The notes beneath the pieces were generated by a model. It did no database searches. It was not told the DNA's origin and saw only the letters and a list, made by a program, of their open reading frames with translations. The translations under genes were made by a program, and so were the position numbers. Source: Kiritimatiellia bacterium (GTDB taxonomy: Bacteria > Verrucomicrobiota > Kiritimatiellia > RFP12 > UBA1067). From it: a stretch of DNA of 12,990 bases. Each line of letters opens with the position of its first letter. The first letter of the stretch is position 1. Shown here in pieces: positions 1 through 12,990 of this stretch. The DNA lies in assembly GCA_017547265.1 (NCBI GenBank), contig JAFYQC010000099.1, positions 1 to 12,990 on the forward strand, in the 5' to 3' direction.

Positions 1-261
1 TAGGAAATCGTCGGCAAGGTCGCAAACTTCCTCATCGCGCTCATCAAGGAATCGGAGCACACGTGGTATGAAATAAGCGCACTCCTCGTATGTTCCAGCT
101 GGCAGATAGCTTTGGAATATGTTACGCAATTCCTGAAATCCCATTTTTTCATCGGGAACGGCAAGAATGGCAGCGCACTCCTCTGGCGAGAAATCGTAAT
201 TGGGGTCGCTCAACTTTGTCGGGCGAGGATATGGAATCTGGTTTTGGCGTATCTCTGTCAT
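1..261 (-). CDS. Unrecognised protein, N-terminal part, cut by window edge
   Basis: An uninterrupted minus-strand frame runs from the ATG at 261 to base 1 with no stop, giving the first 87 residues of a protein that continues outside the window. It begins MTEIRQNQIPYPRP and is acidic and hydrophilic, with no signal peptide or membrane segment and no motif I can assign. A stretch reading LPAGTYEECAYFIPR is followed by an acidic helix-like tail (LDERDEEV). The start lies 39 bases after the stop of the secretin-like gene on the same strand, so it is probably the last visible member of that transcription unit. A G-rich stretch about 15-20 bases upstream could serve as a weak ribosome site. That it is a real gene is supported by the open frame to the edge and the operon spacing; the function is unknown. 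Confidence 0.6.
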   Translation of the reverse strand, partial: MTEIRQNQIPYPRPTKLSDPNYDFSPEECAAILAVPDEKMGFQELRNIFQSYLPAGTYEECAYFIPRVLRFLDERDEEVCDLADDFL

Positions 262-300
262 AGTGGTCGGAGCCCTGCCCCCAGGATAATCCCCTTTCGC

Positions 301-2265
301 CTATGGATCAATCAAACGGGGCGTGACGAAGATAAAGACAAACTTATCCTCGTCGCCTTTGCGCCTGTCAGCGCCACCGCCGAAGACGTATGTCGCGCCT
401 GGCCTCATGCTGACTTTCGTGTCTGTGCTCGCGCGGACAGGGAAGAACGGCTGTTCCATAGCGAGGTCGTATGTCGCCGCGCCCTTCCACTTCGCCTTCG
501 CGCCGTAGTCCTTCCACTTGGGCTCGCCCACAAGGTATGTATACAATTCGACATCGATAAGATTGCCGTCATCCGTCAATGTCGGCGTTATTTGCACGAT
601 CGTCCCGACCTCACGCATCGTAAACGACTGCGGCTCTACGGCCGCGCCCGTGGAGTAGTTTCCGTAGATGGTGTTCGTGCCGACCGTCTGATTCCATTCC
701 GCAAGCAACACGTCGTAGTCAGTCGGATAGATGTATTCCGTGAGCCCCTTGAGAACCGTCTCCTCCCCTGGGCGTGTGACGAGGCGCGGCGACTCGAGAA
801 GCCTGGCGCCGCCATGCGCCATCAGCCGATTCTGCAAGACCGCCGCATTGACGCGGTTCGTGCCGAAGTAGCCGACATCCGAAAGGGCCTTCCTGTCCGC
901 CGATATGTATCGAATGTCAAGCTCGATATTTTTGCCATCGTTAAAAGAACTCGCCCAGACCTTCGCAACCTTGGCAAGGTTCTCGGGTGTGTTCTTTATC
1001 CAGAGGCGATTGAGCGACCTGAGTTTGTGGAGAGACGAACCCTCCGGCCATTCTACGCCAGCGCCTTCAGTGAAGAACTCCTTCCATTCGCGCTCGTCTT
1101 CTGCGACTTCGGCGGCCCTTTCCTCTTTCGTCTTGGGTTTTGCGTCTGGATCGGGACATGCAGACATCGTGCAGCCAGTAAATGTCTGATAGTAGAATGT
1201 CCACGATTCCATTCCTTCGGACTCAAACTTGCGACGAACCTCAGGATCGCCCAAGCGCCGACTCGGCGGCTCACACTCGCCACCATCGCTGTCAACAAGC
1301 CGCGCCGTGACAAAGACAAGGACGAACTTGTCTTCGTTTGCCCTGAGGGAATCAGTCACGCCGCCGAAGACGAGGGTGCGGCCAGGGCGGACGCTGACCT
1401 TCGTGTCGACGCTCGCCCTAACGGGGAAAAACGGCTGTTCCATCGAAAGGTCGTATGTCGTCGAACCTTCCCACTTCGCCTTCGCGCCGTAGTCCTTCCA
1501 TTCGGGCTCACCCACAAACTGTGCATTGATCCAAAGATCAATCAAGCTTCCGTCATCCGTCAATTCCGGCGTCACCTGGACAATCGTCCCGACCTCGCGC
1601 ATCGTAAACGACTGCGGCTCGAGGGCACCCAACACACATTGACAAGAATTCGTTCCTGGCACAGCGTCATTGCATGGCAAGGCGACGCAACCAGCAGGCA
1701 GCCGAGGCAGCTGCAAATCATAGTCCGTCGGATAGATGTATTCCACTACTTGCTTGCCGACGGCATCTTCACCCGGACGCGTAACGACGCGCACCGACTC
1801 AAGGAGCTTGGCGTCTTGGCGCGCCATCAGCCGTTCCTGCAAAACCGCCGCGTCGACGCGGTTTGTGTCGAAGTAGCCAACCGCTTCAAGCGCCGCACGG
1901 ACAGTCTCAACGAAGCGAGTGTCGATTTCGACATTAAATGACTTCAGCGCGAATTCGTCGAGAATCTTCTCGAACTTCGCAAGGTTCTCGGGAGTGTTCC
2001 GCACATTCAAAGTTCCCGCAGTCTTCACGTGGACAATGCTGGAACCTTCCGGCCAGTCGACACCCAAAAGGCCAAGTGCACATTTGTAAGAATCATCCTC
2101 CCCTTCTTTCTTCAGCCATGTTTCCGCATCCTCGTCCAGCGACATGCGTTCAAAGAATCCGCTTGTAATCGGATACACCCGCAGTTCCATCGGCTCGGCG
2201 GCCGACACTTCGCCAAGGCAGGCCACGCCCACCACAAGCACCACAGCAAACCATGTCCTCTTCAT
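301..2265 (-). CDS. Exported secretin-like protein with two tandem modules
   Basis: This 654-residue protein starts with a typical signal peptide (MKRTWFAVVLVVGVACLGEVSA, written here as residues 1-22, cleavage near A22-A23). The rest is two copies of one module, about residues 26-325 and 346-654. Each copy has a short N-domain-like segment (GVDWPEGSS at 68-76, GVEWPEGSS at 403-411, then NTPENLAK at 90-97 and 425-432). A C-terminal secretin-like part follows: LLES.R.VTRPGE, YIYPTDYD, EPQSFTMREVGTIVQ at 216-230 and 544-558, a TDDG-L-ID strand, MEQPFFPVRAS.DTKVS, and a final FV.VT.RL. The order matches the conserved core of GspD/PilQ secretins (Pfam Secretin family). No C-terminal lipoprotein-pilot or complete N0-N3 array is visible, so it may not form a classical secretion pore. 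The ATG at 2265 has a good GGAAGGAA site 7 bases upstream. It follows protein B by 39 bases. Confidence 0.75.
   Translation of the reverse strand: MKRTWFAVVLVVGVACLGEVSAAEPMELRVYPITSGFFERMSLDEDAETWLKKEGEDDSYKCALGLLGVDWPEGSSIVHVKTAGTLNVRNTPENLAKFEKILDEFALKSFNVEIDTRFVETVRAALEAVGYFDTNRVDAAVLQERLMARQDAKLLESVRVVTRPGEDAVGKQVVEYIYPTDYDLQLPRLPAGCVALPCNDAVPGTNSCQCVLGALEPQSFTMREVGTIVQVTPELTDDGSLIDLWINAQFVGEPEWKDYGAKAKWEGSTTYDLSMEQPFFPVRASVDTKVSVRPGRTLVFGGVTDSLRANEDKFVLVFVTARLVDSDGGECEPPSRRLGDPEVRRKFESEGMESWTFYYQTFTGCTMSACPDPDAKPKTKEERAAEVAEDEREWKEFFTEGAGVEWPEGSSLHKLRSLNRLWIKNTPENLAKVAKVWASSFNDGKNIELDIRYISADRKALSDVGYFGTNRVNAAVLQNRLMAHGGARLLESPRLVTRPGEETVLKGLTEYIYPTDYDVLLAEWNQTVGTNTIYGNYSTGAAVEPQSFTMREVGTIVQITPTLTDDGNLIDVELYTYLVGEPKWKDYGAKAKWKGAATYDLAMEQPFFPVRASTDTKVSMRPGATYVFGGGADRRKGDEDKFVFIFVTPRLIDP
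451..533 (-). repeat. Second copy of the secretin-module DNA duplication
   Basis: This block matches 1435-1517 in the same orientation, 984 bases apart, with about 11 mismatches in 83 by hand count. It encodes the WKDYGAKAKW...YDL.MEQ segment of module 2. The retained DNA identity shows that the two modules arose by internal duplication, with this stretch kept similar by selection or gene conversion. Confidence 0.75.
1435..1517 (-). repeat. First copy of the secretin-module DNA duplication
   Basis: Direct-repeat partner of 451-533, encoding WKDYGAKAKW...YDLSMEQ of module 1. The protein modules align over about 300 residues with an offset of 328-335 residues, but DNA similarity is clearest here. 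Confidence 0.75.
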
Positions 2266-2272
2266 GCTCGCG

Positions 2273-2280
2273 TTCCTTCC
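2273..2280 (-). promoter_or_regulatory. Shine-Dalgarno site of the secretin-like gene
   Basis: GGAAGGAA on the minus strand, 7 bases before the ATG at 2265. It fixes the start at the residue that gives a complete signal peptide. Confidence 0.7.
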
Positions 2281-2304
2281 ATGTTCAATGTTATTTCACA
2301 AACC

Positions 2305-3270
2305 CTATTTCTTCGTCGGCGCTCCAAGCAGTTCGCGCAGGCGCGGCAAATCGAGCTTGAGGGGACGCCCTTCTTCTTCTTCGTCGTCATCATCCACAAG
2401 CTTCTTTCCCGACAGATTTCCCGACAGAAAAGCCTTTAGAATGTCGATGTCGCCGGCTCTGACTAAAGTCCGATTGCCGTTGATGACCCACGCCAGTCTT
2501 TCAAAGCGTTCAAGCGACACGCTGTCATCCTCTTCGTATGAAAAATTACCAAGAAACTTCGTGCGAAGGCTTTCACTTTCGCCGCGCTCTTCGATAATGT
2601 CGGACAAGTCGACTCGTACCCAGCCTGCAGGATCGGAAGACCGAGCAGGAAGCCGTTTGAACTCGCCACCGCACTCGCCGTACAGCTTGCCGGCTGGCGG
2701 AGGAGCCCACCAGATGGACGCGTAACCCCGCACCTCGCCCGCCTCCGAGATATCCCTCGCCCTGATCAACCCTTCGGGATTGATCGTGCGCACCGCGCAG
2801 TTCGTCGCCCCGTACGACACTACCTGCACCTCTTCGCCAATCTTCCAATGGAAACGTGCCTTCTCTTCCTCCAGGCGTGGCCGTCCGATGATCTTGGCCC
2901 TCATTGGTATTTTAAGGTCCTTCGCAGAATGGCACTTTTTGCAAAGGACCGATTCGTCGAGCGTTATGTCGAGTCCGAGCGCCTTGAGACTCTTCGCGCC
3001 GTCACGATAGCGGTCAAGACTATCCGCCATCATCTTGCGGTTTTTAGGATAGACGGTATGCGTCCCGCACTTCTTGCAGACATACTCGAAAGTCGCAGAT
3101 TCCGGCATTGATACCACATAGCACATCGCCGAAGCCCCGCGCCTGACCTTCGGCTCGGGCGAGGCGGCGAGCTTGTCGAGCATCGCGTTCAGCTCGTCGC
3201 GGTCGAAGTCCTTGCCCTCGGCCGCGAGCGCCGACAGCACCGCGACCCCGACTCCTATTTGCATCTTCAT
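2305..3270 (-). CDS. Exported zinc-ribbon-like protein B, paralogue of A
   Basis: This 321-residue protein is a paralogue of the product at 4301-5272. The open frame extends further upstream into the radical SAM gene, but the chosen ATG at 3270 matches the start of the paralogue (MK.QIGVGVAVLSALA) and sits 7 bases after a TATAAT. An ATG nine bases earlier overlaps that hexamer. Residues 1-18 resemble a short signal peptide (hydrophobic run then ALAAEG). The shared segment FDRDELNAMLDKLAASPEP follows, then AMCY at 48-51. CKKC (65-68) and CKKC (110-113) are probably a split zinc ribbon. The middle (about 143-175) is strand-rich and might be SH3-like, which is tentative. DPAGWVRV (213-220), LAWVING (259-265) and the end LPRLRELLG are shared with A. 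Residues 292-300 are a run of acidic residues absent from A. It lies 20 bases after the radical SAM gene. I cannot name a family or function. Confidence 0.75.
   Translation of the reverse strand: MKMQIGVGVAVLSALAAEGKDFDRDELNAMLDKLAASPEPKVRRGASAMCYVVSMPESATFEYVCKKCGTHTVYPKNRKMMADSLDRYRDGAKSLKALGLDITLDESVLCKKCHSAKDLKIPMRAKIIGRPRLEEEKARFHWKIGEEVQVVSYGATNCAVRTINPEGLIRARDISEAGEVRGYASIWWAPPPAGKLYGECGGEFKRLPARSSDPAGWVRVDLSDIIEERGESESLRTKFLGNFSYEEDDSVSLERFERLAWVINGNRTLVRAGDIDILKAFLSGNLSGKKLVDDDDEEEEGRPLKLDLPRLRELLGAPTKK
3159..3270 (-). repeat. Conserved 5' end of gene B, direct copy of gene A 5' end
   Basis: The first 112 coding bases match 5161-5272 with about 13 mismatches by hand count, and the similarity continues through the TATAAT and the GTCG behind it. 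The remainder of the two genes is much more diverged, so this block was either duplicated with its promoter and held under strong constraint or homogenised by gene conversion. Confidence 0.7.
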
Positions 3271-3277
3271 GTTCGAC

Positions 3278-3286
3278 ATTATACCA
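3278..3286 (-). promoter_or_regulatory. Extended -10 promoter of gene B, leaderless start
   Basis: Minus-strand TGG-TATAAT, a perfect -10 with a TGn extension, ends 7 bases before the ATG at 3270. The expected transcription start then falls at or next to the ATG. There is no Shine-Dalgarno and no clear -35; the upstream region is the end of the radical SAM gene. Gene B may therefore be transcribed both from here and by read-through. Confidence 0.55.
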
Positions 3287-3290
3287 CAAA

Positions 3291-4304
3291 TCACGAGAAG
3301 CCGGTCTCGCGTTCTACTCCGTTGGCGAGAAGCGGGTCGGGGGCGGACGGCGAACCTAGGAAAACACGCGCGGCTTCGCGGCAACCGCCCAGGCACTTCG
3401 CCGCGCGCGCACAACCAGCGCACATCTCGGGCAGGTAGTCGTGGCGAATAAAATGCATCCACTCCTCGCTCTCGGGAAGCCGCTCCCACTCGTTCCAGCG
3501 GAGAATCTCGACAGGACTGTGGTTGCAGGCGCGGATCATTCCGTTCGGCCCGACCGTGAAGAACTCCGTTGCCGCAGAGCAGCCGGTCGAGACCTGCAGG
3601 AACTTGTATTTCTCCGTGTCGATCAGGCACTCTGGAAGTTCCGTTCCGAAATGTCCATACCGCTTCGCACGCGAAAGCACTTCCTCCGCGACATCGGCAA
3701 CCTCGCGCACTTCCTCTGCCGTCAGCATAAGTTCTGGATGCGAAAGCCCGCGCCCACCGGGCAGAAAGCGGTTCAAGAGCAGCGAGTCCGCGCCAGCGAC
3801 AAGCGCGGCGGAAATCGTCTCGTAGAGTTCCGGCAAGTTGAGCTTCGTGACCGCGACGCCCACGGTCGTTCCACAGCCGAGCTCGCGGGCGCGCGCGAAC
3901 ACGCCAAGAATGTGCTCGACAGGCGTGTCGCTGTCGGTGTTCTCCGCAAACGACTTTAGCCCCGGCATACTGACAGAAAGGCGAATCCCGCGCTCGGCGC
4001 AGAAGCGCAAAACATCGTCCGTCACGATCCGCCCGTTCGAGAGCAAGTTCACAAGCGCCCGCTTCGACGCGAAGTCAACGAGATCGAGACACCCTTCCTT
4101 CATCAGCGCCTCGCCGCCGGTGAAGGAGAACTGGCGAACGCCGTTCGCGGCGAATTCGTCGATAAGCCGCTTCCACTCGTCGACGGACATTTCGGCACTC
4201 GGCTTTATCATGCCCGCAAACCACGGACACGAGCAAAACCGGCAGGCGTGGTTGCAGCGGTAGGTCAGTTCCAGCGCCGCAACAGGCGGAAGAACGGTCG
4301 TCAC
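3291..4304 (-). CDS. Radical SAM/SPASM domain protein
   Basis: This 337-residue protein carries the radical SAM cluster motif C17-x3-C21-x2-C24 (RCNHACRFC) and the FTGGEAL motif (61-67) that contacts S-adenosylmethionine. Its C-terminal part is SPASM-like, with C242, C260 in GMIRACNH, and C295, C298, C304, C308 in CAGCARAAKCLGGC, so it should bind at least one auxiliary iron-sulfur cluster. Known relatives with this layout modify peptides or proteins (PqqE, AlbA, anaerobic sulfatase-maturating enzymes). The start is GTG at 4304 and forms a GTGA overlap with the stop of gene A, giving translational coupling; GGGAGAG lies 8 bases upstream. It has no signal peptide, so it acts in the cytoplasm. 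Its position between paralogues A and B suggests that these, or something they bind, are its substrates or partners. No short precursor peptide gene is visible nearby. Confidence 0.85.
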   Translation of the reverse strand: MTTVLPPVAALELTYRCNHACRFCSCPWFAGMIKPSAEMSVDEWKRLIDEFAANGVRQFSFTGGEALMKEGCLDLVDFASKRALVNLLSNGRIVTDDVLRFCAERGIRLSVSMPGLKSFAENTDSDTPVEHILGVFARARELGCGTTVGVAVTKLNLPELYETISAALVAGADSLLLNRFLPGGRGLSHPELMLTAEEVREVADVAEEVLSRAKRYGHFGTELPECLIDTEKYKFLQVSTGCSAATEFFTVGPNGMIRACNHSPVEILRWNEWERLPESEEWMHFIRHDYLPEMCAGCARAAKCLGGCREAARVFLGSPSAPDPLLANGVERETGFS

Positions 4305-5272
4305 TTCTTCGGCTCTCCCAGCAGCTCGCGCAGACGAGGGAGTTGCGACTTCATCGAGATTGAATCGCCATCAGATCCATCACGAAGATACACATTGCCC
4401 TTCATGAATTTCTCCAAAAGCTCGACGTCTGACCTGTCGGCAAGGACACGCTTGCCGTTTATCACCCACGCGAGCGACTCTATGCGCTGAAGATGCGCGT
4501 CCTCGCCTTCTTCATACACACGGTTGCCAACCATGGTCAATTCTACAGAATAGGCATTGGGCGAGCCCGTCAGGATCCTCAGCGGTGCTTCTACCCGCAC
4601 CCAACCCGCAGGATCGCCTGGTTTTGCGGCCAGGCGAGTCAACACATCACCTTTCTTTGCAAAGAAGGCGCCACGACCCTTGACGAGCGGCAGATAGCGC
4701 ACATTCACTTCGTCGCCCGTCACATGCCCGTCTTTGTCGATGAACTTTTCCGAAATCCAGTATTCAGGATCGCGAGGCAACACACTGCAATAACGGCGCC
4801 CCCATTCTTTCACAATTACAGGATCCCCGACACGAAGTCCGAAGCTCTCGTATACCCACTTGTTGTCCGGGGTTCGCCTCGGCTCGGCAACAATCACTCC
4901 AGCGGTCGGAATGCCCAAGTCCTTCAACGAGGCACAATGCCTACAAAGCGCCGACTCGTCAAGCTTGATGTCAAGCCCCATTCCCCGCAACTTCACGGCG
5001 CTGTCACGATAAAAGGCAAGCTGAGACTCCAAGCCCTCGTAGTTCTCAGGGTAATGCGTGCGCGTTCCGCACTTCTTGCAGAGATAGTCAAACGACTTCT
5101 CTTCCGGCATCATCACACTATAGCACATCGCGGTAGGTCCGTGCTTGACCTTCGGCTCGGGCGATGCTGCGAGCTTGTCGAGCATCGCGTTAAGCTCGTC
5201 GCGGTCAAAGTTCTTGCCCTCGGCCGCAAGTGCCGACAACACCGCGACCCCTACTCCTATCTGAGTTTTCAT
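4301..5272 (-). CDS. Exported zinc-ribbon-like protein A
   Basis: This 323-residue protein starts MKTQIGVGVAVLSALAAEG, which looks like a short signal peptide with cleavage near ALA-AEG. FDRDELNAMLDKLAASPEP and AMCY (48-51) follow. CKKC (65-68) and CRHC (110-113) probably bind one metal across a 41-residue loop. The segment at about 145-178 (LRVGDPVIV...YWISEKFI) could be an SH3-like barrel, which is a guess from spacing. DPAGWVRV (220-227), LAWVINGKR (267-275) and PRLRELLG (312-319) are shared with paralogue B. The start is set by homology with B and by the TATAAT 6 bases upstream; there is no Shine-Dalgarno. Its stop overlaps the radical SAM start by 4 bases. I do not recognise the family; export and metal binding are inferred. 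Confidence 0.75.
   Translation of the reverse strand: MKTQIGVGVAVLSALAAEGKNFDRDELNAMLDKLAASPEPKVKHGPTAMCYSVMMPEEKSFDYLCKKCGTRTHYPENYEGLESQLAFYRDSAVKLRGMGLDIKLDESALCRHCASLKDLGIPTAGVIVAEPRRTPDNKWVYESFGLRVGDPVIVKEWGRRYCSVLPRDPEYWISEKFIDKDGHVTGDEVNVRYLPLVKGRGAFFAKKGDVLTRLAAKPGDPAGWVRVEAPLRILTGSPNAYSVELTMVGNRVYEEGEDAHLQRIESLAWVINGKRVLADRSDVELLEKFMKGNVYLRDGSDGDSISMKSQLPRLRELLGEPKK
4313..4319 (-). promoter_or_regulatory. Shine-Dalgarno site of the radical SAM gene
   Basis: GGGAGAG inside the last codons of gene A, 8 bases before the GTG at 4304. It supports the unusual GTG start and the 4-base stop-start overlap. Confidence 0.55.
5161..5272 (-). repeat. Conserved 5' end of gene A, direct copy of gene B 5' end
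   Basis: Partner of 3159-3270, with about 13 mismatches in 112 bases. At protein level 45 of the first 51 residues are identical, far above the similarity of the remaining 270. Confidence 0.7.
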
Positions 5273-5278
5273 GACGAC

Positions 5279-5287
5279 ATTATATCA
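5279..5287 (-). promoter_or_regulatory. Extended -10 promoter of gene A, leaderless start
   Basis: Minus-strand TGA-TATAAT ends 6 bases before the ATG at 5272, which puts the predicted transcription start on the A of the ATG. No -35 of recognisable quality and no Shine-Dalgarno is present. It lies in the 45-base gap after the GH127 gene, so the A-radical SAM-B unit can be expressed separately from GH127. No convincing terminator is visible in that gap. Confidence 0.6.
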
Positions 5288-5317
5288 AAATTCCAGCGAA
5301 ACGAATTTCCGACGCGG

Positions 5318-7324
5318 TTAGGGATTTTCCGCAAACCACACCTGAAGCTCGTTGCCGGGCTCGCGGTTGCCCCAGAGGAAATACGGAATCAGCACAAGAC
5401 CGTTCGACGCCTTGAGCGCGGGGAACGTCTTGTCGCCGATAGAAATCGTCGTGTCCGCAAACGTCGCGTCGGCAGGAAGCGACGCACCATACGCCTTGCC
5501 TCCATTGTCGAAACCTTCGGCGCAGTAGACGATCGGTCCGCGCTGCACGGCGAGACGTCCGCGGTCTGCGGCGACCTTCTCGTTCGCGCGGATGCGCTTG
5601 ACCGGCATCGGCAGCTCGAGGACGACCTTGTCGCCAATTTTCCACTTGCGCTCTATCGTCACGTAGCCGTCATCGCCAACCTTAGCGGCAACGCGCTCGC
5701 CATTGACGGAAAGCGAGACATCGGAAGCAGACGAGGGAGATGTCTGGACATAGAGGTCGCTCGGCACGGGACGCCCTCTCGCCCAGCCGGGGATACGAAC
5801 CTTGAGCGCAATCGCGGCGCGCCAGTCCTTCGAGGCGCTTGGCGCAGGTTCGAGGACGGCAAGCTCGGCGCGACCACTCCACGGATAGTCCGTTTTCTGC
5901 CGCACGCGCACAAAGCCGCCAGCCGCATCGTCGTTATAGTCGATAGTCGCTTCGCCCTCCACGAAGAGATTCCAGTAGACGACACCCTTCTTCGACGCGT
6001 ATGCCATCGACGGCACCTGCGGGATAAACCGCACGTCGTTCACCGGGCAACATGAGCAGCCAAACCACTTCGAGCGCTTGTAGCCGCCCTTCGACGCGAG
6101 CGGATTCGGGTAGAAGAACTCGTCGCCCGAAAGCGAGATGCCAGAGAGGAAGCCGTTGTAGAGCGTCCGTTCGAGGACGTCAATGTACTTCGCATCGCCC
6201 TTCGCGCGGAACATCCTGTCGTTCCACAGCATGTTCGCTATCGCGGCGCAAGTCTCGAGATACGCCTCACCGCTGTCGTTCGGCAAGTCGTACGCGCCGT
6301 TGAACGCCTCCCACATGTTGCCGTACTTCGGATGCTTGAAGCCGTGACGCGCCCCGATGCCGCCGGTGAGATAGAGCTGTCCGCCAACGACATCCTCCCA
6401 GATGCGGTCTATCGCGTCGATATACGACTTGTCGCCCGCAAGCGCGGCGACGTCAGCCATGCCGCAATACATGTAACCGGCGCGGACGGCGTGTCCGATG
6501 GCCGTCTTCTGCTCGACTACCGGCTCGTGGTCCTGGAGGGTTGCGCCCCATGTCGGACGCAAGTCTTTCCGCCCGCGCATGTCGAGGAAGAACTTGGCGA
6601 GGTCGAGATACTTCTTCTCGCCCGTAACGCGATATAGCTTCGCGAGGGCAAGTTCCACCTCCTGATGGCCAGCAGTCGACTTTATCTGCGTCGGCCCGTT
6701 GCCAAACGTGCGGCACATCAAGTCAGCCGAGCGACGGGCGACATCGAGGAAGTCGGTCTTGCCAGATGTCTCGTAGCGCGCCACGGCCGCCTCGATCATG
6801 TGTCCCTGATTGTAGAGCTCATGCGAATCGGAGAGATTGCTCCAGCGCACCGGCCCCATCATCATGACGCCCCACGCCTTCTTGTCCGCGGCGGAGAGAC
6901 TGAAACCGAGTGTCCGCGCCGAGTAGAGATAGCCGTCCGGCTCCTGCGCCTTTGCGACCTGCCCGATCAGCCAGTCGAGCTTGCGCCCAAGTTCCTCGTC
7001 GGGATGCTGGGCGAGGACATACGCCGTTCCTTCCATCACCTTGTAGACGTCAGAGTCGTCGAATGGAGTTCCGCTGAACGTGCCGAGCGCGCGCGCCGCG
7101 GCGTTCGTCAAGTTCGCGATACGCGGCGTCTCGGCGCACTTCGCCCAGTCGGTCACGAGCGTCGAAACGCGGTTTGTCTCCAGTCGGTCGAACCAGAAAC
7201 CGCCAGTTGCCCGAGCAGACGCGAACGACGCGTTCTTTATCGGATAGTCACACATCTCCGCTTCGCCCGCAAAGGCGCAGCCCCCAGCGACGGCCAATGC
7301 CGCCGCAACTCCGTGTAGTTTCAT
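5318..7324 (-). CDS. Exported GH127 beta-L-arabinofuranosidase-like enzyme
   Basis: This 668-residue protein belongs to glycoside hydrolase family 127 (formerly DUF1680). Members such as HypBA1 release L-arabinofuranose from plant cell-wall glycans and hydroxyproline-rich glycoproteins, using a zinc-bound cysteine nucleophile. A signal peptide occupies residues 1-20 (cleavage near AFA-GEA), so it acts outside the cytoplasm. An alpha/alpha-barrel core follows with EPDGYLY (128-134), HELYNQGHMIEAA (168-180) and GGIGARHG (321-328). By alignment with HypBA1 from memory, E339 in WEAF is the likely acid/base, E357 and C359 in LETCAA are zinc ligands, and C425-C426 in CSCCPVN are nucleophile and ligand. 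C423 adds a further cysteine beside them. The C-terminal third is beta-rich and ends near the usual family length. A clear AAAGGGGAA ribosome site precedes the ATG. It heads the minus-strand gene file. Confidence 0.88.
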   Translation of the reverse strand: MKLHGVAAALAVAGGCAFAGEAEMCDYPIKNASFASARATGGFWFDRLETNRVSTLVTDWAKCAETPRIANLTNAAARALGTFSGTPFDDSDVYKVMEGTAYVLAQHPDEELGRKLDWLIGQVAKAQEPDGYLYSARTLGFSLSAADKKAWGVMMMGPVRWSNLSDSHELYNQGHMIEAAVARYETSGKTDFLDVARRSADLMCRTFGNGPTQIKSTAGHQEVELALAKLYRVTGEKKYLDLAKFFLDMRGRKDLRPTWGATLQDHEPVVEQKTAIGHAVRAGYMYCGMADVAALAGDKSYIDAIDRIWEDVVGGQLYLTGGIGARHGFKHPKYGNMWEAFNGAYDLPNDSGEAYLETCAAIANMLWNDRMFRAKGDAKYIDVLERTLYNGFLSGISLSGDEFFYPNPLASKGGYKRSKWFGCSCCPVNDVRFIPQVPSMAYASKKGVVYWNLFVEGEATIDYNDDAAGGFVRVRQKTDYPWSGRAELAVLEPAPSASKDWRAAIALKVRIPGWARGRPVPSDLYVQTSPSSASDVSLSVNGERVAAKVGDDGYVTIERKWKIGDKVVLELPMPVKRIRANEKVAADRGRLAVQRGPIVYCAEGFDNGGKAYGASLPADATFADTTISIGDKTFPALKASNGLVLIPYFLWGNREPGNELQVWFAENP

Positions 7325-7330
7325 CGATTG

Positions 7331-7339
7331 TTCCCCTTT
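7331..7339 (-). promoter_or_regulatory. Shine-Dalgarno site of the GH127 gene
   Basis: AAAGGGGAA on the minus strand, 6 bases before the ATG at 7324, confirming the start that yields the full signal peptide. Confidence 0.75.
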
Positions 7340-7359
7340 ATTTCACTCGTGCATATTTT

Positions 7360-7390
7360 ATCATATCGCGGCGATTGCGTACACGGTCAA
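7360..7390 (-). promoter_or_regulatory. Sigma-70-type promoter of the GH127 gene
   Basis: Minus-strand TTGACC (7390-7385) and TATGAT (7365-7360) are separated by 19 bases. The implied start near 7353 gives a leader of about 29 bases containing the ribosome site, unlike the leaderless genes elsewhere in the window. The spacer is slightly long and the overlapping AT-rich run allows other -10 choices. Confidence 0.5.
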
Positions 7391-7479
7391 AGCGAGGCTA
7401 GAGTTTATATAGCCCCGATGAACAATAGGTGAAACGCTTTTTTGCAAGTGAAATGGTCGTTTTTCTCCTGACAAGACGA

Positions 7480-7703
7480 AACTCCGAGCGTTAGGGCTCT
7501 CGCTACCGCTCCGCCGCTTCGCGATGTCTCAACGGCGATTCCGTGCGTTGGATTGTCTTTTGTGGCTGCCTTCGGCAGAGGAGGTCTGGAGGATACTTCC
7601 TCCAGCTTAAAGACGATCTGTATCATTCAGCGAGAGACGAATGGTGGGCGCGAAGCAAATGAAATTCTGCGGAGCGGTAGCGAGAGCCCTGCTGATCGGA
7701 GTT
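7480..7703. repeat. 224-base inverted-repeat unit, MITE-like
   Basis: The left arm 7480-7514 and right arm 7669-7703 are inverted copies: an outer 8-base match (AACTCCGA / TCGGAGTT), 5 non-matching bases, then a perfect 22-base match (7493-7514 against 7669-7690). The core between the arms is 154 bases. The layout fits a small non-autonomous element or a pair of dispersed extragenic repeats. I see no target-site duplication and no transposase in the window. Confidence 0.6.
7586..7605. repeat. Perfect 8-bp hairpin in the inverted-repeat core
   Basis: CTGGAGGA-TACT-TCCTCCAG is a perfect stem with a four-base loop. A second small stem, CTGCC-TTC-GGCAG, lies just upstream at 7566-7578. Neither is followed by a T-run on either strand, so they are not ordinary intrinsic terminators; they may belong to the repeat element. 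Confidence 0.5.
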
Positions 7704-7795
7704 AAATTCGGCGAGCAGAACGTGGTTCGGATTGGCAGCGGATCAAAATGGGGAAACTCCAGAAAGCGAGGGGGTGGGCGAGTGACGCATATAAA

Positions 7796-7804
7796 TGGTA
7801 AAAT
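7796..7804 (+). promoter_or_regulatory. Extended -10 promoter of hrpA, leaderless start
   Basis: TGG-TAAAAT ends 6 bases before the ATG at 7811, so the expected transcription start is the A of the ATG. There is no Shine-Dalgarno and no good -35. Confidence 0.5.
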
Positions 7805-7810
7805 AGCGCC

Positions 7811-10800
7811 ATGTCAGACGACAACGACTTTAACTATCCTGGAGAGCTCCCGATTTGCGAACATCGGGAGGAGATTCTCGCTCTCCTCGAGAAGAACGAC
7901 GTCGTAATCGTCTGCGGCGACACAGGCTCAGGAAAGACAACACAGCTCCCTAAGATGGCAATGGAGCTCGGCCGCGGAAAGAACGGCCGGCGCATCGCAT
8001 GCACACAGCCGCGCCGCCTCGCCGCCGTCACGGTCGCAGAACGCGTTGCGGAGGAATTGAAGTCGCCCGTCGGCGGCATCATCGGATACCAGCACCGCTT
8101 CGGGAGAAAAGTCTCCGACTTGACGCGCGTCAAGTTCATGACCGACGGCGTCCTTCTCGCGGAGACTCGTTCCGACCCGCTTCTTCGCGCCTACGACACG
8201 ATCATCGTCGACGAGGCGCACGAGCGTTCGCTCAACGTAGACTTCCTTCTCGGGATTCTCAAGCGCATCTTGGAAAAGCGACGCGACCTCAAAGTAATTG
8301 TCTCGTCTGCGACATTGGACACCGAGCGTTTCTCGCAGTTCTTCGGCGGTGCACCGACGCTTTCCGTCCCTGGGCGACTCTTCCCGATAGAGATACAATA
8401 CCGCGAACCGCTAGACGGCGAAGAAGCAGATCTCCCACGCGAAATCTCCGCCGCGATTCGGACGCTCCCGCCGAATGACGACGTACTCGTGTTCCTTCCG
8501 GGAGAACGCGATATACGCGAGACGGCGGACTATCTCCAGCGAAGCCAGTTCCACTGCGACGACGAGACGATTCCCCTTCTCGCATCGCTTCCCGCGGCCG
8601 AACAGCAGCGGGCGTTCCGACTCTCAGAAAAGCGCCGTGTGATACTCGCGACGAATGTAGCCGAGACTTCGGTGACAATTCCCGGTATCCGCGCAGTCGT
8701 TGACTCTGGGCTTGCGCGAATCTCGCGCTATGTCCATAGGACGCAAGTGCAGCGTCTCCAGATCGAGCCAGTCTCGCAGGCATCGGCGCGGCAACGCGCG
8801 GGGCGTTGCGGCCGCCTCGGACCTGGCACCTGCATACGGCTCTATTCCGAAAAGGACTTCGAATCGCGCGAAGCGTACACACCGCCAGAAGTGCTGCGGT
8901 CGTCGCTCGCAGGCGTGATACTGACGATGCTCGACTTGCGGCTCGGGAGCATCGAGACATTCCCCTTCATCGACCCGCCGAGGCCGACGATGATACGCGA
9001 GGGGCTAAGGGAGCTTCTCGAACTCGGCGCGATACGTCACGACGCGGATCACGACATCGCGCTCACCGCGATAGGCCACAAGCTCGCGCGGATTCCGGTA
9101 GAGCCGCGCCTTGCGAGAATGCTGCTCGCAGCTTCGCAGTTCGCCACACTTCCATCGGCGCTCCCGATTGTCGCGGCGATGAGCTGCGACGACCCGAAGC
9201 GACGCCCAGTCGACGAGAAGGAGAAGGCGGACCAGGCGCATGCGCAATTCCGCGTTACTGGATCAGACTTCCTCGGTACGCTGAAGCTCTGGAAGTGGTG
9301 GGACGAAAAGTCGAAGGAACTTTCGCAGACGCAGCTGAGGAAACTCGCGCCAAAGACATACCTTTCGTATCCGAAGATGCGCGAATGGCGCGATCTCGTG
9401 AGACAACTTACGGACCTTTCGAAGCATCTTGGCCTCGACATCGAAAGTGACAACGGCGGCCCTGACGCGCTGCACCGTGCGCTTCTAACAGGGCTTCTTG
9501 CCCGCATCGGGCACCTCGACCCCGAGACGAATGACTACCGCGGCGCACACGCGCTCAGGTTTGCGCTACACCCAAGTTCCATTTTGGGAAAGCGCAGTCG
9601 CACGCCGCACCAAGCACCAAGCACCAGTGCCAACGGCGCGAAGGCACCAGCAACGCGAAAGCACCTCTCTCCCGAATGGATCGTTGCTGGCGAACTTGTC
9701 GACACCTCGCGCCTCTTTGCGCGCAACGCTGCAGAAATCGACGTTCGCTGGATAGAGCCGCTTGCAGGCGACATCGCAAAGCACAGCTACCGCTCGCCAG
9801 AATGGGACGCGGAGAATGGCTTTGTCCGCGCGACCGAGCAAGTCACGCTCTACGGGCTCGTGATCGTTCCCGCAAGGCGACGCGACTACAGCCGCATCGA
9901 TCCTGCGCTCTCGCGGCAGATGTTCCTTTTCCACGGACTCGTAATGGGAGAGTTCCCACACCCTCCCCCTTTAGTCCGCGAGAACGCCACGCTAATTGGA
10001 GAGATAAAGAAGCGCGCCGAACGGTTGCGCCGCCCAGAGCTTTTCGATGCGAACGCGCTCTTCCGCCACTTCGACGAGGCGATTCCGCGCGAGATCGTAT
10101 CGACGCGCGATCTCGCAAAGTGGCTTCGCGTGGCGACGGACGAGGAGAAGTCGCGTTTCCGTCTCGACAAGCGGCAGTGGCTCCCGAAAGTCGGCATCTC
10201 GTCCGCGGCGTTTCCCGACTCGATACGCATAGGCGGCGTCAAGCTTGCGCTCTCTTACCGCCACACGCCGGACGATCCGGAGCGCGACGGCATTACATGC
10301 ACGGTCAGAAAATCCGACGCGGCGGTACTGAAACTCTGGAGCGCCGACTGGCTCGTACCAGGAGCGCTTCCTGAAAAGCTCGCGTTCCTTCTCGGCGTCC
10401 TTCCGTCTTCGCTGCGGCGCGTCGTCTCGCCAATCTCCGACACGGTGGCAATAATAGCCCCGCTTCTCTCGCCAGGAGAAAAGCCGCTCGTCGACGCCGT
10501 GCGCGAAGTCCTGAAAGTCCACAACGGCATCGCGATTCCCGCGACAGCGTGGGAGAACGTGAAATATCCACCGCACCTGCTCGTCCGATACCGCATCAAG
10601 GACGAAGATGGAAGAATCGTCGCAGAGACGCGCGACCTCGAGGCGGCCCTTGCCGCCGCAGGCGTCGGCGGACGAAGCGCAAGCGCATCGTCGCCGCACG
10701 ACGACGAAAAGCACTTCAGCTGGGATTTCGGAACTCTCGACGAAAGGCAGACTGTTTCGTCTGCTGGATGGACGCTCACGCACTATCCCGCACTTTCAGA

Positions 10801-11566
10801 CGAGGGCGACGGCGTGAAGATCAAGCTCTTCAAGTCAGCGGACGATGCCGCGCGTGCGCACGAAGCGGGCGTAGTCCGGCTCTTCTTCCTGCGGCTCACG
10901 CAGCATACGCGCCCTTCTTTCGCGACGAACCGCCTGCCTCTTTCGGCGGGGCTCTATCTCGGCACGATTGGCTACGAGCGATCGCGGATCGCAGACGACC
11001 TTCTCTGGGCGGCGATACGCATGGGAGCAGTCGCGGGTTTCGCGCCGATACGCACGAAAGAAGATTTCGAAACGCGCTTTAAGGAGCGGCGCGGCGCAAT
11101 CGACGCAGCAAAGGCGGAACTCTCCGCGCTTTTTTCCTCCATCCTCGAATCGGCCGCGGGATGTGCGGAGCGACTTGAGACGGCCGCGCCCGCCGAGGAC
11201 ATCTACGACGCGGTGGAAACGCAACTTGCGTGGCTCGTGTTCCCAGGGTTTCTCAAGGCCGTTCCGCCAGAGCGGCTAAAGCACTACGACCGCTACCTTC
11301 GCGGCATTCGCGTCCGCATCGACCGCGCGAGGTCTAATCCATCGGGAGACAGGACGAAGGAATCTCGCGTCGAGCCATACTGGGAGCGATACCGCGAGGC
11401 GATTCTCGGCAAAGGACCAAAGATCGCAAACCGCGACGCGCTCGCAGAGTACCGCTGGATGGTCGAGGAATTTCGTGTTTCCGTCTTCGCGCCCGAGGTG
11501 CGCGCTGCGATCCCCGTAAGCGAAAAGCGCCTCGACGCGAAATGGGCCGAGGCGCTTGGCGAGTGA
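7811..11566 (+). CDS. hrpA: ATP-dependent DEAH-box RNA helicase HrpA
   Basis: At 1251 residues this is close to E. coli HrpA (about 1300). HrpA is a cytoplasmic RNA helicase implicated in mRNA processing and ribosome rescue. Visible motifs are Walker A GDTGSGKT (36-43), motif Ia QPRRLAA (66-72), DEAH (134-137), SAT (166-168), motif V ATNVAETSVTIPG (280-292) and motif VI QRAGRCGR (328-335). An HA2-type region spans about 370-490, and the long C-terminal HrpA-specific part (DUF3418) runs from about 680 to 1245. The N-terminus is shorter than in E. coli, with only 35 residues before Walker A. The ATG is set by the adjacent -10 element. Residues about 593-621 form a low-complexity insertion just before the usual EW/KW-AGELV-TSRLFAR segment. 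Its stop is 4 bases from the convergent nitroreductase stop. Confidence 0.93.
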   Translation: MSDDNDFNYPGELPICEHREEILALLEKNDVVIVCGDTGSGKTTQLPKMAMELGRGKNGRRIACTQPRRLAAVTVAERVAEELKSPVGGIIGYQHRFGRKVSDLTRVKFMTDGVLLAETRSDPLLRAYDTIIVDEAHERSLNVDFLLGILKRILEKRRDLKVIVSSATLDTERFSQFFGGAPTLSVPGRLFPIEIQYREPLDGEEADLPREISAAIRTLPPNDDVLVFLPGERDIRETADYLQRSQFHCDDETIPLLASLPAAEQQRAFRLSEKRRVILATNVAETSVTIPGIRAVVDSGLARISRYVHRTQVQRLQIEPVSQASARQRAGRCGRLGPGTCIRLYSEKDFESREAYTPPEVLRSSLAGVILTMLDLRLGSIETFPFIDPPRPTMIREGLRELLELGAIRHDADHDIALTAIGHKLARIPVEPRLARMLLAASQFATLPSALPIVAAMSCDDPKRRPVDEKEKADQAHAQFRVTGSDFLGTLKLWKWWDEKSKELSQTQLRKLAPKTYLSYPKMREWRDLVRQLTDLSKHLGLDIESDNGGPDALHRALLTGLLARIGHLDPETNDYRGAHALRFALHPSSILGKRSRTPHQAPSTSANGAKAPATRKHLSPEWIVAGELVDTSRLFARNAAEIDVRWIEPLAGDIAKHSYRSPEWDAENGFVRATEQVTLYGLVIVPARRRDYSRIDPALSRQMFLFHGLVMGEFPHPPPLVRENATLIGEIKKRAERLRRPELFDANALFRHFDEAIPREIVSTRDLAKWLRVATDEEKSRFRLDKRQWLPKVGISSAAFPDSIRIGGVKLALSYRHTPDDPERDGITCTVRKSDAAVLKLWSADWLVPGALPEKLAFLLGVLPSSLRRVVSPISDTVAIIAPLLSPGEKPLVDAVREVLKVHNGIAIPATAWENVKYPPHLLVRYRIKDEDGRIVAETRDLEAALAAAGVGGRSASASSPHDDEKHFSWDFGTLDERQTVSSAGWTLTHYPALSDEGDGVKIKLFKSADDAARAHEAGVVRLFFLRLTQHTRPSFATNRLPLSAGLYLGTIGYERSRIADDLLWAAIRMGAVAGFAPIRTKEDFETRFKERRGAIDAAKAELSALFSSILESAAGCAERLETAAPAEDIYDAVETQLAWLVFPGFLKAVPPERLKHYDRYLRGIRVRIDRARSNPSGDRTKESRVEPYWERYREAILGKGPKIANRDALAEYRWMVEEFRVSVFAPEVRAAIPVSEKRLDAKWAEALGE
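9587..9673 (+). repeat. Low-complexity in-frame insertion in hrpA with 7-base repeats
   Basis: The coding stretch for residues about 593-621 is rich in Ala, Pro, Ser, Thr, Lys and Arg and lacks the short FKKPPKW-type link I expect in HrpA here. It contains GCACCAA twice plus GCACCA in tandem (9607-9626), followed by two more GCACC copies. It looks like a short repeat inserted in frame without breaking the gene. Confidence 0.5.
11523..11557 (-). terminator. Possible intrinsic terminator of the nitroreductase gene
   Basis: On the minus strand AAGCGCCTCG (11557-11548) pairs perfectly with CGAGGCGCTT (11534-11525) around a 13-base loop, and the stem runs into TTTT then CG. It begins 13 bases after the nitroreductase stop. 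It lies inside the last codons of hrpA, whose coding sequence constrains it. The T-run is short and the loop long, so strength is uncertain. Confidence 0.4.
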
Positions 11567-11570
11567 CGGG

Positions 11571-12401
11571 CTACCGCCTGTAGACTATGTTCGCGTAGCC
11601 GTCGCGCTGAACGCCGCGCGGATAACTGACCGCCCCACGCCCGAAGAGAATCGCGTAGAACGGTGTCGTGCGACGAATCCCGATTGTCACCTCGAGAAGT
11701 TCGGGAACCTCTTTCTGCACGAGCCCGAGGAACCCACACCAGCAAGTCGAGATTCCGTTAGCGTTTGCAAGCAACTCGAAGTGGGAGCAGGCGATAGTGA
11801 CGTCCTCGCGCGGCGTAGTGACGCCAGGGCAAGTTTCGTCAGACGAGACGATTAGAAGCCCGGTTGCGCCGCGGAAAAACATGTCCTCTCCGCCATTTCT
11901 GAGCTTAATCGCCGGCACGGCTAGCCAGCGCGGCAGGAGCTTCGTGCCGTCGCGGTGGTTCTCGATTGCCTTTATGAATTCGCCGCGGAAACGATCCATC
12001 GCCGCGCGCGTCGGGATGCAGGTGAAGGTAAGGGCGCGCGCGTTGCATCCGGTCGGAGAGTTGCCGAGGGTTTTAAGCACGCGATCAAGCGCTTCCTGAT
12101 CAACATCGTCGCTTGAGAACCGGCGAACGGAACGGCGCGTCCTGAGCCAGTTCTCGGCAGCCGCCGCGCTTGGAAGCTCAAGCCCTTTCGTGACTACGGA
12201 TTCTTCCGCGCGTCGTCCGTCGAATGTCACGGCACCGACGGGGCAGACCGCGAGGCAGTGCTGGCACTTCATGCATCTCTCGGGAAACGCCATCCGCGGC
12301 AGACCGTCGGCCTCCATACGCAACGCGCGGAACGCGCAGTCTCTCACGCAGGCACCGCATTTCAGGCACTTCGCAGCATTGACTTCAAATAGTTCGCTCA
12401 T
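11571..12401 (-). CDS. Ferredoxin-nitroreductase fusion protein
   Basis: This 276-residue cytoplasmic protein joins a two-[4Fe-4S] ferredoxin domain (C12, C15, C18, C22 and C43, C46, C49, C53, residues 1-60) to a nitroreductase-fold domain from about residue 85. The latter begins with the FMN-phosphate-binding RRSVRRF (89-95) and includes SPTGCNAR (115-122) and a C-terminal GR segment. Such fusions are common in anaerobes. They are thought to pass electrons from low-potential donors to FMN and then to an unidentified acceptor, so the true substrate cannot be read from the sequence. It has its own promoter, with a TATACT 7 bases before the ATG and no Shine-Dalgarno. Upstream, ispE lies on the same strand 137 bases away. 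Confidence 0.88.
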   Translation of the reverse strand: MSELFEVNAAKCLKCGACVRDCAFRALRMEADGLPRMAFPERCMKCQHCLAVCPVGAVTFDGRRAEESVVTKGLELPSAAAAENWLRTRRSVRRFSSDDVDQEALDRVLKTLGNSPTGCNARALTFTCIPTRAAMDRFRGEFIKAIENHRDGTKLLPRWLAVPAIKLRNGGEDMFFRGATGLLIVSSDETCPGVTTPREDVTIACSHFELLANANGISTCWCGFLGLVQKEVPELLEVTIGIRRTTPFYAILFGRGAVSYPRGVQRDGYANIVYRR

Positions 12402-12408
12402 GTGACAC

Positions 12409-12438
12409 AGTATATCTAAAAACCACCGTCCCCGTCAA
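12409..12438 (-). promoter_or_regulatory. Sigma-70 promoter of the nitroreductase gene, leaderless
   Basis: Minus-strand TTGACG (12438-12433) and TATACT (12414-12409) are 18 bases apart, the best -35/-10 pair in the window. The expected start is one base from, or at, the ATG at 12401. The rest of the 137-base gap after ispE holds GGTGG repeats and a T-run inside the spacer, with no clear hairpin. Confidence 0.65.
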
Positions 12439-12538
12439 ACCACCACCTCCATTGTTTCCGCATCTACAAAATCTCCACCATAACCTCTGCGGAGACAGAA
12501 GACAACGAAGGGAAAAGAAAGCGAGAAAACAGTGGAAA

Positions 12539-12990
12539 TCAGAGCGTGTGGACGGCCCAGGCGGAGAGGCCCTTTTTGCGAAGGGACTCCGCGACTTCCT
12601 CTGCCCGCGCCGCGGACTCGACAAGCCCGAATACCGACGAGCCACTGCCGCTCACAGTTGCGCCAAGAACGCCCGCCGTACGGAGCGACGCAAGCGCGTC
12701 GGCAATCTCGGGATGCAAGCGACACGCGGGAAGCGCAAGATCGTTCACGAGCAAAGCGGAAATGCGTCCAAGATCGCCCGTCTCAAGCGCCGCAAGACAC
12801 GCCTCTGTCGCTGACGGCGCAGCGAGATCGCGCGGCAAGCAACGCGCGTAGACCTCGCGCGTCGAAGTATGGACGCCGGGATTGGCGACGACTAGATCAA
12901 GACGAGGACAGGCGACGCGCTCAACCGCCTCGCCGCGCCCCTGCATCACGACAGGGCCGCCAAGCACGAGCGCTGGAACATCGCTTCCCA
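12539..12990 (-). CDS. ispE: 4-diphosphocytidyl-2-C-methyl-D-erythritol kinase, C-terminal part
   Basis: The open frame reaches the right edge and encodes the last 149 residues, about half of a usual 280-290-residue IspE. IspE is the GHMP-family kinase that phosphorylates CDP-methylerythritol in the MEP route to isoprenoids. The visible part starts GSDVPALVLGG, the region just after the ATP-binding loop, followed by GRGEAVERV. Near the C-terminus VSGSGSSVFGL is the conserved glycine-rich GHMP motif 3. A GTG at 12967 is an internal codon, because homology continues upstream of it to the edge. The MEP pathway agrees with a bacterial source. Confidence 0.85.
   Translation of the reverse strand, partial: GSDVPALVLGGPVVMQGRGEAVERVACPRLDLVVANPGVHTSTREVYARCLPRDLAAPSATEACLAALETGDLGRISALLVNDLALPACRLHPEIADALASLRTAGVLGATVSGSGSSVFGLVESAARAEEVAESLRKKGLSAWAVHTL

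Follow-up and report, generated by a model that had tools for sequence, protein, structure and literature searches.

A candidate protein maturation system in Kiritimatiellia: a radical SAM/SPASM enzyme paired with probably exported proteins that share a Cys-Tyr segment

The cysteine motif of SPASM-type radical S-adenosylmethionine (SAM) enzymes takes the form CX9-15GX4C - CX2CX5CX3C - C, and to our knowledge few of these enzymes act on whole proteins rather than on short peptides. QhpD, whose protein substrate is exported, is of the SPASM type, and the maturation motif of sulfatases is C/S-x-P/A-x-R (C-x-P-x-R for the cysteine type). According to PMC8326336, QhpD forms thioether bonds of the Cys-Asp and Cys-Glu type in quinohemoprotein amine dehydrogenase, and the anaerobic sulfatase-maturating enzymes are SPASM enzymes whose target in a protein is one cysteine or serine. 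The same source and PMC6231123 describe that the open auxiliary cluster of CteB can bind a substrate cysteine and that PqqE uses an aspartate as cluster ligand. Here, we compare with these systems a locus in 12,990 nucleotides (nt) of a Kiritimatiellia bacterium (assembly GCA_017547265.1, contig JAFYQC010000099.1, positions 1 to 12,990), referred to as the window, in which the radical SAM/SPASM enzyme R is encoded between two paralogous proteins, A and B. We consider it probable that R is a maturase for A and B, which would modify their Cys50-Tyr51 segment before export; QhpD and the sulfatase maturases are cited as precedents for radical SAM enzymes acting on proteins, and no membership of R in either group is claimed. 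The features in question are:

4301..5272, minus strand: A, open reading frame of 323 amino acids (aa) with a hydrophobic N-terminus, probably exported, carrying a Cys-Tyr segment and two CxxC pairs that are conserved in the family; proposed substrate of R; no Pfam or NCBIfam match above cut-off
5120..5125, minus strand: Cys50-Tyr51 of A (TGC TAT), proposed target of R, as suggested by its conservation and by its presence, which tracks R
5069..5080, minus strand: first CxxC pair of A (C65, C68), invariant in the A-family alignments
4934..4945, minus strand: second CxxC pair of A (C110, C113), invariant in the A-family alignments
4301..4304, minus strand: GTGA, the 4 nt in which the stop of A and the start of R overlap, read from the sequence
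3291..4304, minus strand: R, radical SAM/SPASM enzyme of 337 aa with a GTG start; Radical_SAM domain PF04055 at E 7e-19, SPASM motifs, nearest solved chains PqqE and SkfB
4233..4256, minus strand: radical SAM CX3CX2C motif of R (C17, C21, C24), by motif reading
3381..3581, minus strand: SPASM cysteines of R (C242, C260, C295, C298, C304, C308), usual last cysteine absent, by motif reading
2305..3270, minus strand: B, open reading frame of 321 aa, paralog of A according to BLASTP, second proposed substrate
3118..3123, minus strand: Cys50-Tyr51 of B, from the alignment of A-family rows

A preliminary description, made from the sequence alone, had given the lengths, the shared strand and the overlap exactly, and had recognised R as a radical SAM/SPASM protein, an assignment supported by the PF04055 match and the cluster motif and, for the SPASM part, by both main blocks (CX9-15GX4C and CX2CX5CX3C), with the usual last cysteine missing. 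Among the 67 NCBIfam models matching R, the 25 best all score under their cut-offs. It is closest to PqqE, which gives the best NCBIfam score and the best solved relative (6c8v, 46 bits), and R, which lacks the last SPASM cysteine, has a near-invariant D323-P324; however, the score of 84 bits is far under the cut-off of 381, and the eight window proteins scanned contain no PqqD-like Pfam match. QhpD resembles what is proposed for R in that it acts on cysteines of a protein, but R reaches only 30 bits with TIGR03906 (cut-off 453) and no amine dehydrogenase gene was found among the eight proteins. CteB and the maturases of ranthipeptides and sactipeptides are likewise SPASM enzymes beside a cysteine-bearing substrate, which here is a proposed one. 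In contrast to the latter maturases, R has no N-terminal RRE domain (the recognition element of enzymes for ribosomally synthesised and post-translationally modified peptides, RiPPs), since its first cluster cysteine is residue 17 and leaves no room for one; the same eight proteins gave no RRE-type Pfam match, no transporter and no peptidase. A and B also differ from RiPP precursors, which are usually far shorter, as had been noted before: they comprise 321-323 aa with predicted folded domains, and the partners of R elsewhere mostly have about 190-410 aa, with one exception of 75 aa (in genome G035). Compared with the substrates of sulfatase maturases, residues 50-54 read CYSVM in A and CYVVS in B and do not form the sulfatase motif, and no sulfatase is among the eight proteins. 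A role of R in defence was rejected, the only indications being weak viperin-type matches, such as any radical SAM core may give. As a separate observation, one R copy (L002:4264-4584) lacks about residues 48-231 with the frame kept, which may be an assembly artefact of repeated copies.

The locus was followed through 161 genomes belonging to the order of the nearest relative, 387 from its phylum, and 28 and 137 from two other orders. We counted as R any match to the R of the window with at least about 38% identity, plus fragments with at least 69%; a more distant gene in G172 and radical SAM matches of about 29-35% identity were excluded, the latter being set aside as a different family after nine loci had been read, some of them in part. 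Outside the window, 29 R copies with a readable start and upstream DNA could be judged, including those of L002 and L115 though R is incomplete there. Start-less fragments (L116/L161, L162, L163, L165, L166, L167) were left out, as was an R remnant inside a contig, which has no A-family match (L164). Each of the 29 judged copies is preceded on the same strand by an A-family gene, which in 28 of them is a member according to the A-core hidden Markov model and is located within 3 kb of R. The gene of the remaining locus (L160:6927-8123, genome G527) was seen by reading the frame; it encodes two tandem A-type domains, both without Cys-Tyr, and ends at the start of an R with a shortened SPASM end. 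The pairing persists from 98% down to about 38% R identity, into other lineages with different A forms and neighbours. A-R junctions often overlap as GTGA or ATGA (GTGA also at L001, L002, L092 (two), L093, L094, L097, L099, L108 and L115), and translational coupling of A and R through the GTGA overlap is likely. The closest loci, with an A identity of 94-96%, come from the draft genomes RUG14632 (uncultured bacterium), RGIG2266 (Kiritimatiellae, goat duodenum) and RUG673 (uncultured Lentisphaerae).

Crude clustering of the frames of at least 60 aa within 5 kb of R revealed no family beyond A, R and their antisense frames that spans the near and the most distant loci, so that both the A-R pair itself and the lack of any other common gene family support a role of R that involves A. 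The same clustering placed S, a secretin-like gene, in seven sequences including the window, and linked L114 to three others through one more family. The sandwich of R between A and B, from which the preliminary description started, is present in the window, where the minus strand is transcribed in the order GH127 glycosidase, A, R, B, S, but it was rejected as the conserved unit: L001 and L003 have A-R-S without B, and the order of A, R, B and S varies among loci, for example B-like gene, S, A, R in G086. A comparable arrangement (A', A', R, A', with A' for an A-type gene) was found in G269. Judged from gene order, the conserved unit is an A-type gene upstream of R, and the A-R-B sandwich is lineage-specific.

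Within A, the feature that alignments tie to R is the Cys50-Tyr51 segment and not the two CxxC pairs, which were rejected as the enzyme-linked feature because relatives in genomes without R keep them. Among 59 A-family rows from the loci, 38 contain Cys-Tyr (36 of them outside the window), 18 do not and three are cut by contig ends; the 18 rows comprise seven in genomes with R, three of G175 and G527, whose R is shortened, and eight in genomes without detected R. The partner of R is readable at the motif in 26 of the 29 cases and has Cys-Tyr in 24. Beside the two partners without it (G175, G527) lie the only readable R copies in which the second SPASM block (CX2CX5-6CX3C) is missing. For the 24 Cys-Tyr partners, the C-terminal part of R is readable and includes this block in 19, the other five being cut; the block reads CX2CX6CX3C in L110 and L111, and the internal deletion of L002 lies elsewhere in R. 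Hence, Cys50-Tyr51 goes together with an R that has the full set of SPASM blocks. Three Cys-Tyr copies are located away from R (L117, L118, L127), and their genomes (G002, G003, G142) have R elsewhere. The threshold for calling a genome R-less was E 1e-20 in one order; in the other, E 1e-45 and 1e-35 were used. All 19 Cys-Tyr-less matches (11 + 3 + 5) were read. In nine of the ten genomes without detected R (G033, G066, G082, G089, G135, G258, G287, G304, G558), the A relatives have the CxxC pairs but no Cys-Tyr; the entire helix plus Cys-Tyr segment is missing in G033, G066, G082, G089 and G135, and the motif position reads ATRY in G287. G033 and G135 are R-less, yet have matches of the 29-35% radical SAM group. 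The reverse case is a 75-aa lipoprotein-like protein between A' and R in G035, in which DCY is retained and the first CxxC pair is replaced by D and T, after which the chain ends. No second example was present among the 161 genomes, where the search returned only the protein itself and the neighbouring A'.

When the 33 genomes with a readable A-family gene are tabulated, 19 have R and Cys-Tyr, two have R and only Cys-Tyr-less genes, one has Cys-Tyr without a full R and 11 have neither (Fisher p 4e-6; 4e-7 in an earlier, smaller table). All judged R copies have an A-family gene; homologs without R, which if widespread were to count against the proposal, do exist in ten genomes and speak in part against it, but nine of these have no Cys50-Tyr51 and the tenth (G127) has a decayed gene. 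Of the roles initially suggested for A and B, i.e. substrates, metallo-partners or delivery proteins, that of a substrate is best supported, with the difference that Cys50-Tyr51 rather than the CxxC pairs is tied to the enzyme.

A and B match each other with 265 bits in BLASTP (E 6e-92, 46% identity across 328 columns), which is far beyond chance, and share C65/C68, C110/C113, AMCY, DPAGWVRV, LAWVING and PRLRELLG in the same order, in agreement with their earlier designation as paralogs. They are not a recent tandem pair around R, because B groups on the tree with a protein of G086 and not with A, and because the A-R-S loci L001 and L003 have no B in between. Their first 43 residues are near-identical (93% aa, 89% nt). 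Synonymous changes affect 10 of the 40 identical residues in this part, the figure for residues 61-323 being 59 of 104 (Fisher p 0.0007), and from these few changes we conclude that recombination probably contributes to the 5' identity alongside constraint. Neither A nor B has a Pfam or NCBIfam match above cut-off or a PF08239 match at E 1, and zinc ribbons (FmdB-type or other) gave only sub-threshold matches, the best being 18 bits vs 34 for B. A known fold was rejected for A, as Foldseek found nothing in the PDB at E 0.001, either with A (best E 1.2) or with the short core (best E 0.74).

The protein collection contains 202 relatives of A at E 0.001, and among the 120 listed many carry the bacterial SH3 domain PF08239. 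A second set of at least 53 relatives, mostly about 180-215 aa long, represents a shorter core form of A without the SH3 part. The aligned family consists of a hydrophobic N-terminus, a short helix, Ala-x-Cys-Tyr, CxxC, LDE...CxxC and a Leu-Leu-Gly end. All 120 filled rows of the A set (122 rows in total) have C50 and Y51, and 50 of 51 rows of the short set have the equivalent residues; in residues 41-60, only Ala48, Cys50 and Tyr51 are near-invariant in both sets. A strongly hydrophobic N-terminal stretch occurs in 112 of 120 proteins of the A set and 48 of 53 of the short set vs 12 of 120 R proteins used as control. A, B and most of the listed homologs are therefore probably exported, as the preliminary description had supposed. 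Lipobox-like cysteines were found in the short set in three of 53 proteins with a strict and in 12 of 53 with a loose pattern. The Cys-Tyr-less paralogs L120 and L125 share CxxC and SH3 parts with the family, but they end in DUF1287 (E 4e-70 and 5e-70), are without the helix and the Cys-Tyr segment and are not located beside R. Since homologs carry SH3 and paralogs end in DUF1287, a link of the A family to the cell wall is suggested. Independently of this, the two fusions indicate that the CxxC plus SH3 part is also used as a module of other proteins, and one A' protein that adjoins R (L112:7516-8745) has no visible signal segment and contains a C-terminal DUF4116 repeat array.

Several observations weigh against the proposed link between R and the Cys-Tyr segment. 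The tabulated genomes are related to each other, and A served to find some of them and R others; moreover, they are drafts, for which the absence of R may reflect incomplete assembly. On a tree built without the motif columns (the rows L095, L096, L101, L168 and L169, the 75-aa G035 protein, the short L106 fragment and the duplicate L161 being dropped), Cys-Tyr changes at least five times, three of these changes being forced by branches starred in the tree. An independent-pairs test on starred branches comprised four pairs, in about two of which Cys-Tyr differs, always in the expected and never in the opposite direction (sign test p 0.5). We read the pattern as consistent, but based on few independent events. 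Individual cases also deviate: the decayed A-like gene of G127, where no R was detected, keeps ACCY and has lost the helix and the second CxxC pair, P0275 and P0293 have no Cys-Tyr with the remainder of the domain present, and L126 and a relative in G070 read GMCR and LCVM, respectively, in genomes with R. In G073 and G119, R is present as fragments at contig edges, and all relatives seen lack Cys-Tyr. The more distant R-like gene of G172, which is 37% identical to the R of G175, has no A-family gene in the 14 kb read. Finally, in the AlphaFold2 models (mean predicted local distance difference test score, pLDDT, 83 for A and 86 for the short core), residues 44-52 of A fall below 50 inside an otherwise mostly confident fold, which would fit a flexible target, but the motif block of the short form has a mean of 77 and is not low, so that flexibility of this block is not general in the models.

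Part of this evidence could also be explained if A were not the substrate of R but its partner, i.e. a metal-binding or docking protein that takes the place of an RRE, which would present another substrate and whose Cys50 would bind the auxiliary cluster of R. This would fit with the lack of room for an RRE domain in R, with the two invariant CxxC pairs and with CteB, in which, according to PMC6231123 and PMC8326336, the open auxiliary cluster is bound by a cysteine of the substrate that takes no part in the crosslink. We nevertheless regard it as unlikely, given that no third gene family occurs across near and distant R loci, peptides shorter than 60 aa being outside that clustering, that the signal-like N-termini of A and B would be odd for a cytoplasmic helper, and that the 75-aa protein of G035 keeps Cys-Tyr without the CxxC domain.

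A different chemistry at the same residue is conceivable as well, in which R would convert Cys50 to a formylglycine-type aldehyde, as sulfatase maturases convert Ser or Cys of a sulfatase (PMC8326336), and A would carry a reactive aldehyde outside the cell. That A has one invariant cysteine beyond the CxxC pairs agrees with this, but it appears quite improbable in view of the missing sulfatase motif, of Tyr51, which is as invariant as Cys50 and unneeded for such chemistry, and of the best 25 of 67 NCBIfam matches for R, which include no sulfatase-maturase model. Lastly, A and R might simply be co-inherited in an amplified or mobile cassette, with R acting on something unrelated. Several copies per genome, contig breaks within R, the internally deleted R of L002, the shuffled order of A, R, B and S, and the probable recombination of the A and B 5' ends are what such a cassette could leave behind; however, the pairing is still found in other lineages in which R identity is 38-51% and the A forms and neighbours differ, and no relative of the A core or R was confirmed in the viral collection, although no search was aimed at mobile genes as such. 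We consider this explanation very improbable.

The reading that we favour is that R matures A and B. In the cytoplasm, R would recognise the conserved stretch that follows the signal segment (helix 24-36 and, after it, PxP), which we infer to be the likeliest recognition element, and would modify the adjoining segment at Cys50 and/or Tyr51, after which A and B would be exported to the cell envelope. Our best guess for the product is a cysteine-based bond, i.e. a thioether or a Cys-Tyr crosslink, and we do not commit ourselves to a particular one. This type of bond is preferred because of the restriction of near-invariant positions to Ala48, Cys50 and Tyr51, and because the missing last SPASM cysteine could leave the auxiliary cluster of R open to a substrate thiolate, as in CteB; by analogy with the aspartate of PqqE, the cluster could also be closed by a residue such as D323. 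The modification may provide the envelope protein with a stabilised or cofactor-like site, either as a stabilising crosslink or as a reactive site.

The remaining genes of the transcribed row in the window are:

7324-5318, minus strand: GH127 glycosidase, first gene in transcription order
301..2265, minus strand: S, 654 aa, two secretin-like halves; PF00263 at E 1.5e-11, Amuc_1098 pilus protein model far under cut-off

S adjoins A-R in six of 28 other loci (L001, L002, L092, L093, L108, L115) and is at most an accessory. GH127 was rejected as part of the system, since tblastn matched only the window, L093 and L094 among the 29 sequences searched. A DEAH-type helicase with DUF3418 (7811-11566, plus strand, 1251 aa) has an open reading frame of equal length in L001 and L002, and an Rfam scan of the window gave no match at gathering score. 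Apart from R, a second radical SAM group, which is about 32% identical to R, about 274 aa long and has a shortened SPASM end, was seen in L029, L080, L081, L082, L086 and L088 (e.g. L080:1474-2298). In these six loci it is immediately preceded by a short gene for a lipoprotein-like product (MKLSKK...GKALGGLLAG...GC, followed by MGxYP or VGxxP), with a looser version of the arrangement in L084, and from the sequences this looks like another enzyme-substrate pair.

In the open-licence literature, we found no description of the A-R pair, no paper combining radical SAM and Kiritimatiellota and none combining SPASM, radical SAM and Lentisphaerae. A-like and R-like proteins labelled Fermentibacteria and Thermoguttaceae occur in the protein lists and are known from the proteins alone. 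We tentatively suggest that the pair could represent an undescribed maturation system of the Planctomycetes-Verrucomicrobia-Chlamydiae (PVC) bacteria, and perhaps beyond, in which an RRE-less SPASM enzyme would introduce a cysteine-tyrosine modification of a new kind, perhaps a crosslink or a protein-derived cofactor, into large exported proteins of the envelope. In place of a leader peptide, the enzyme would read an internal signal that directly follows the export signal. The comparison names an enzyme and two candidate target residues in a family that has neither a curated name nor a fold match. If true, this would be a new protein modification and would give a first function to one uncharacterised radical SAM gene of gut Kiritimatiellota.

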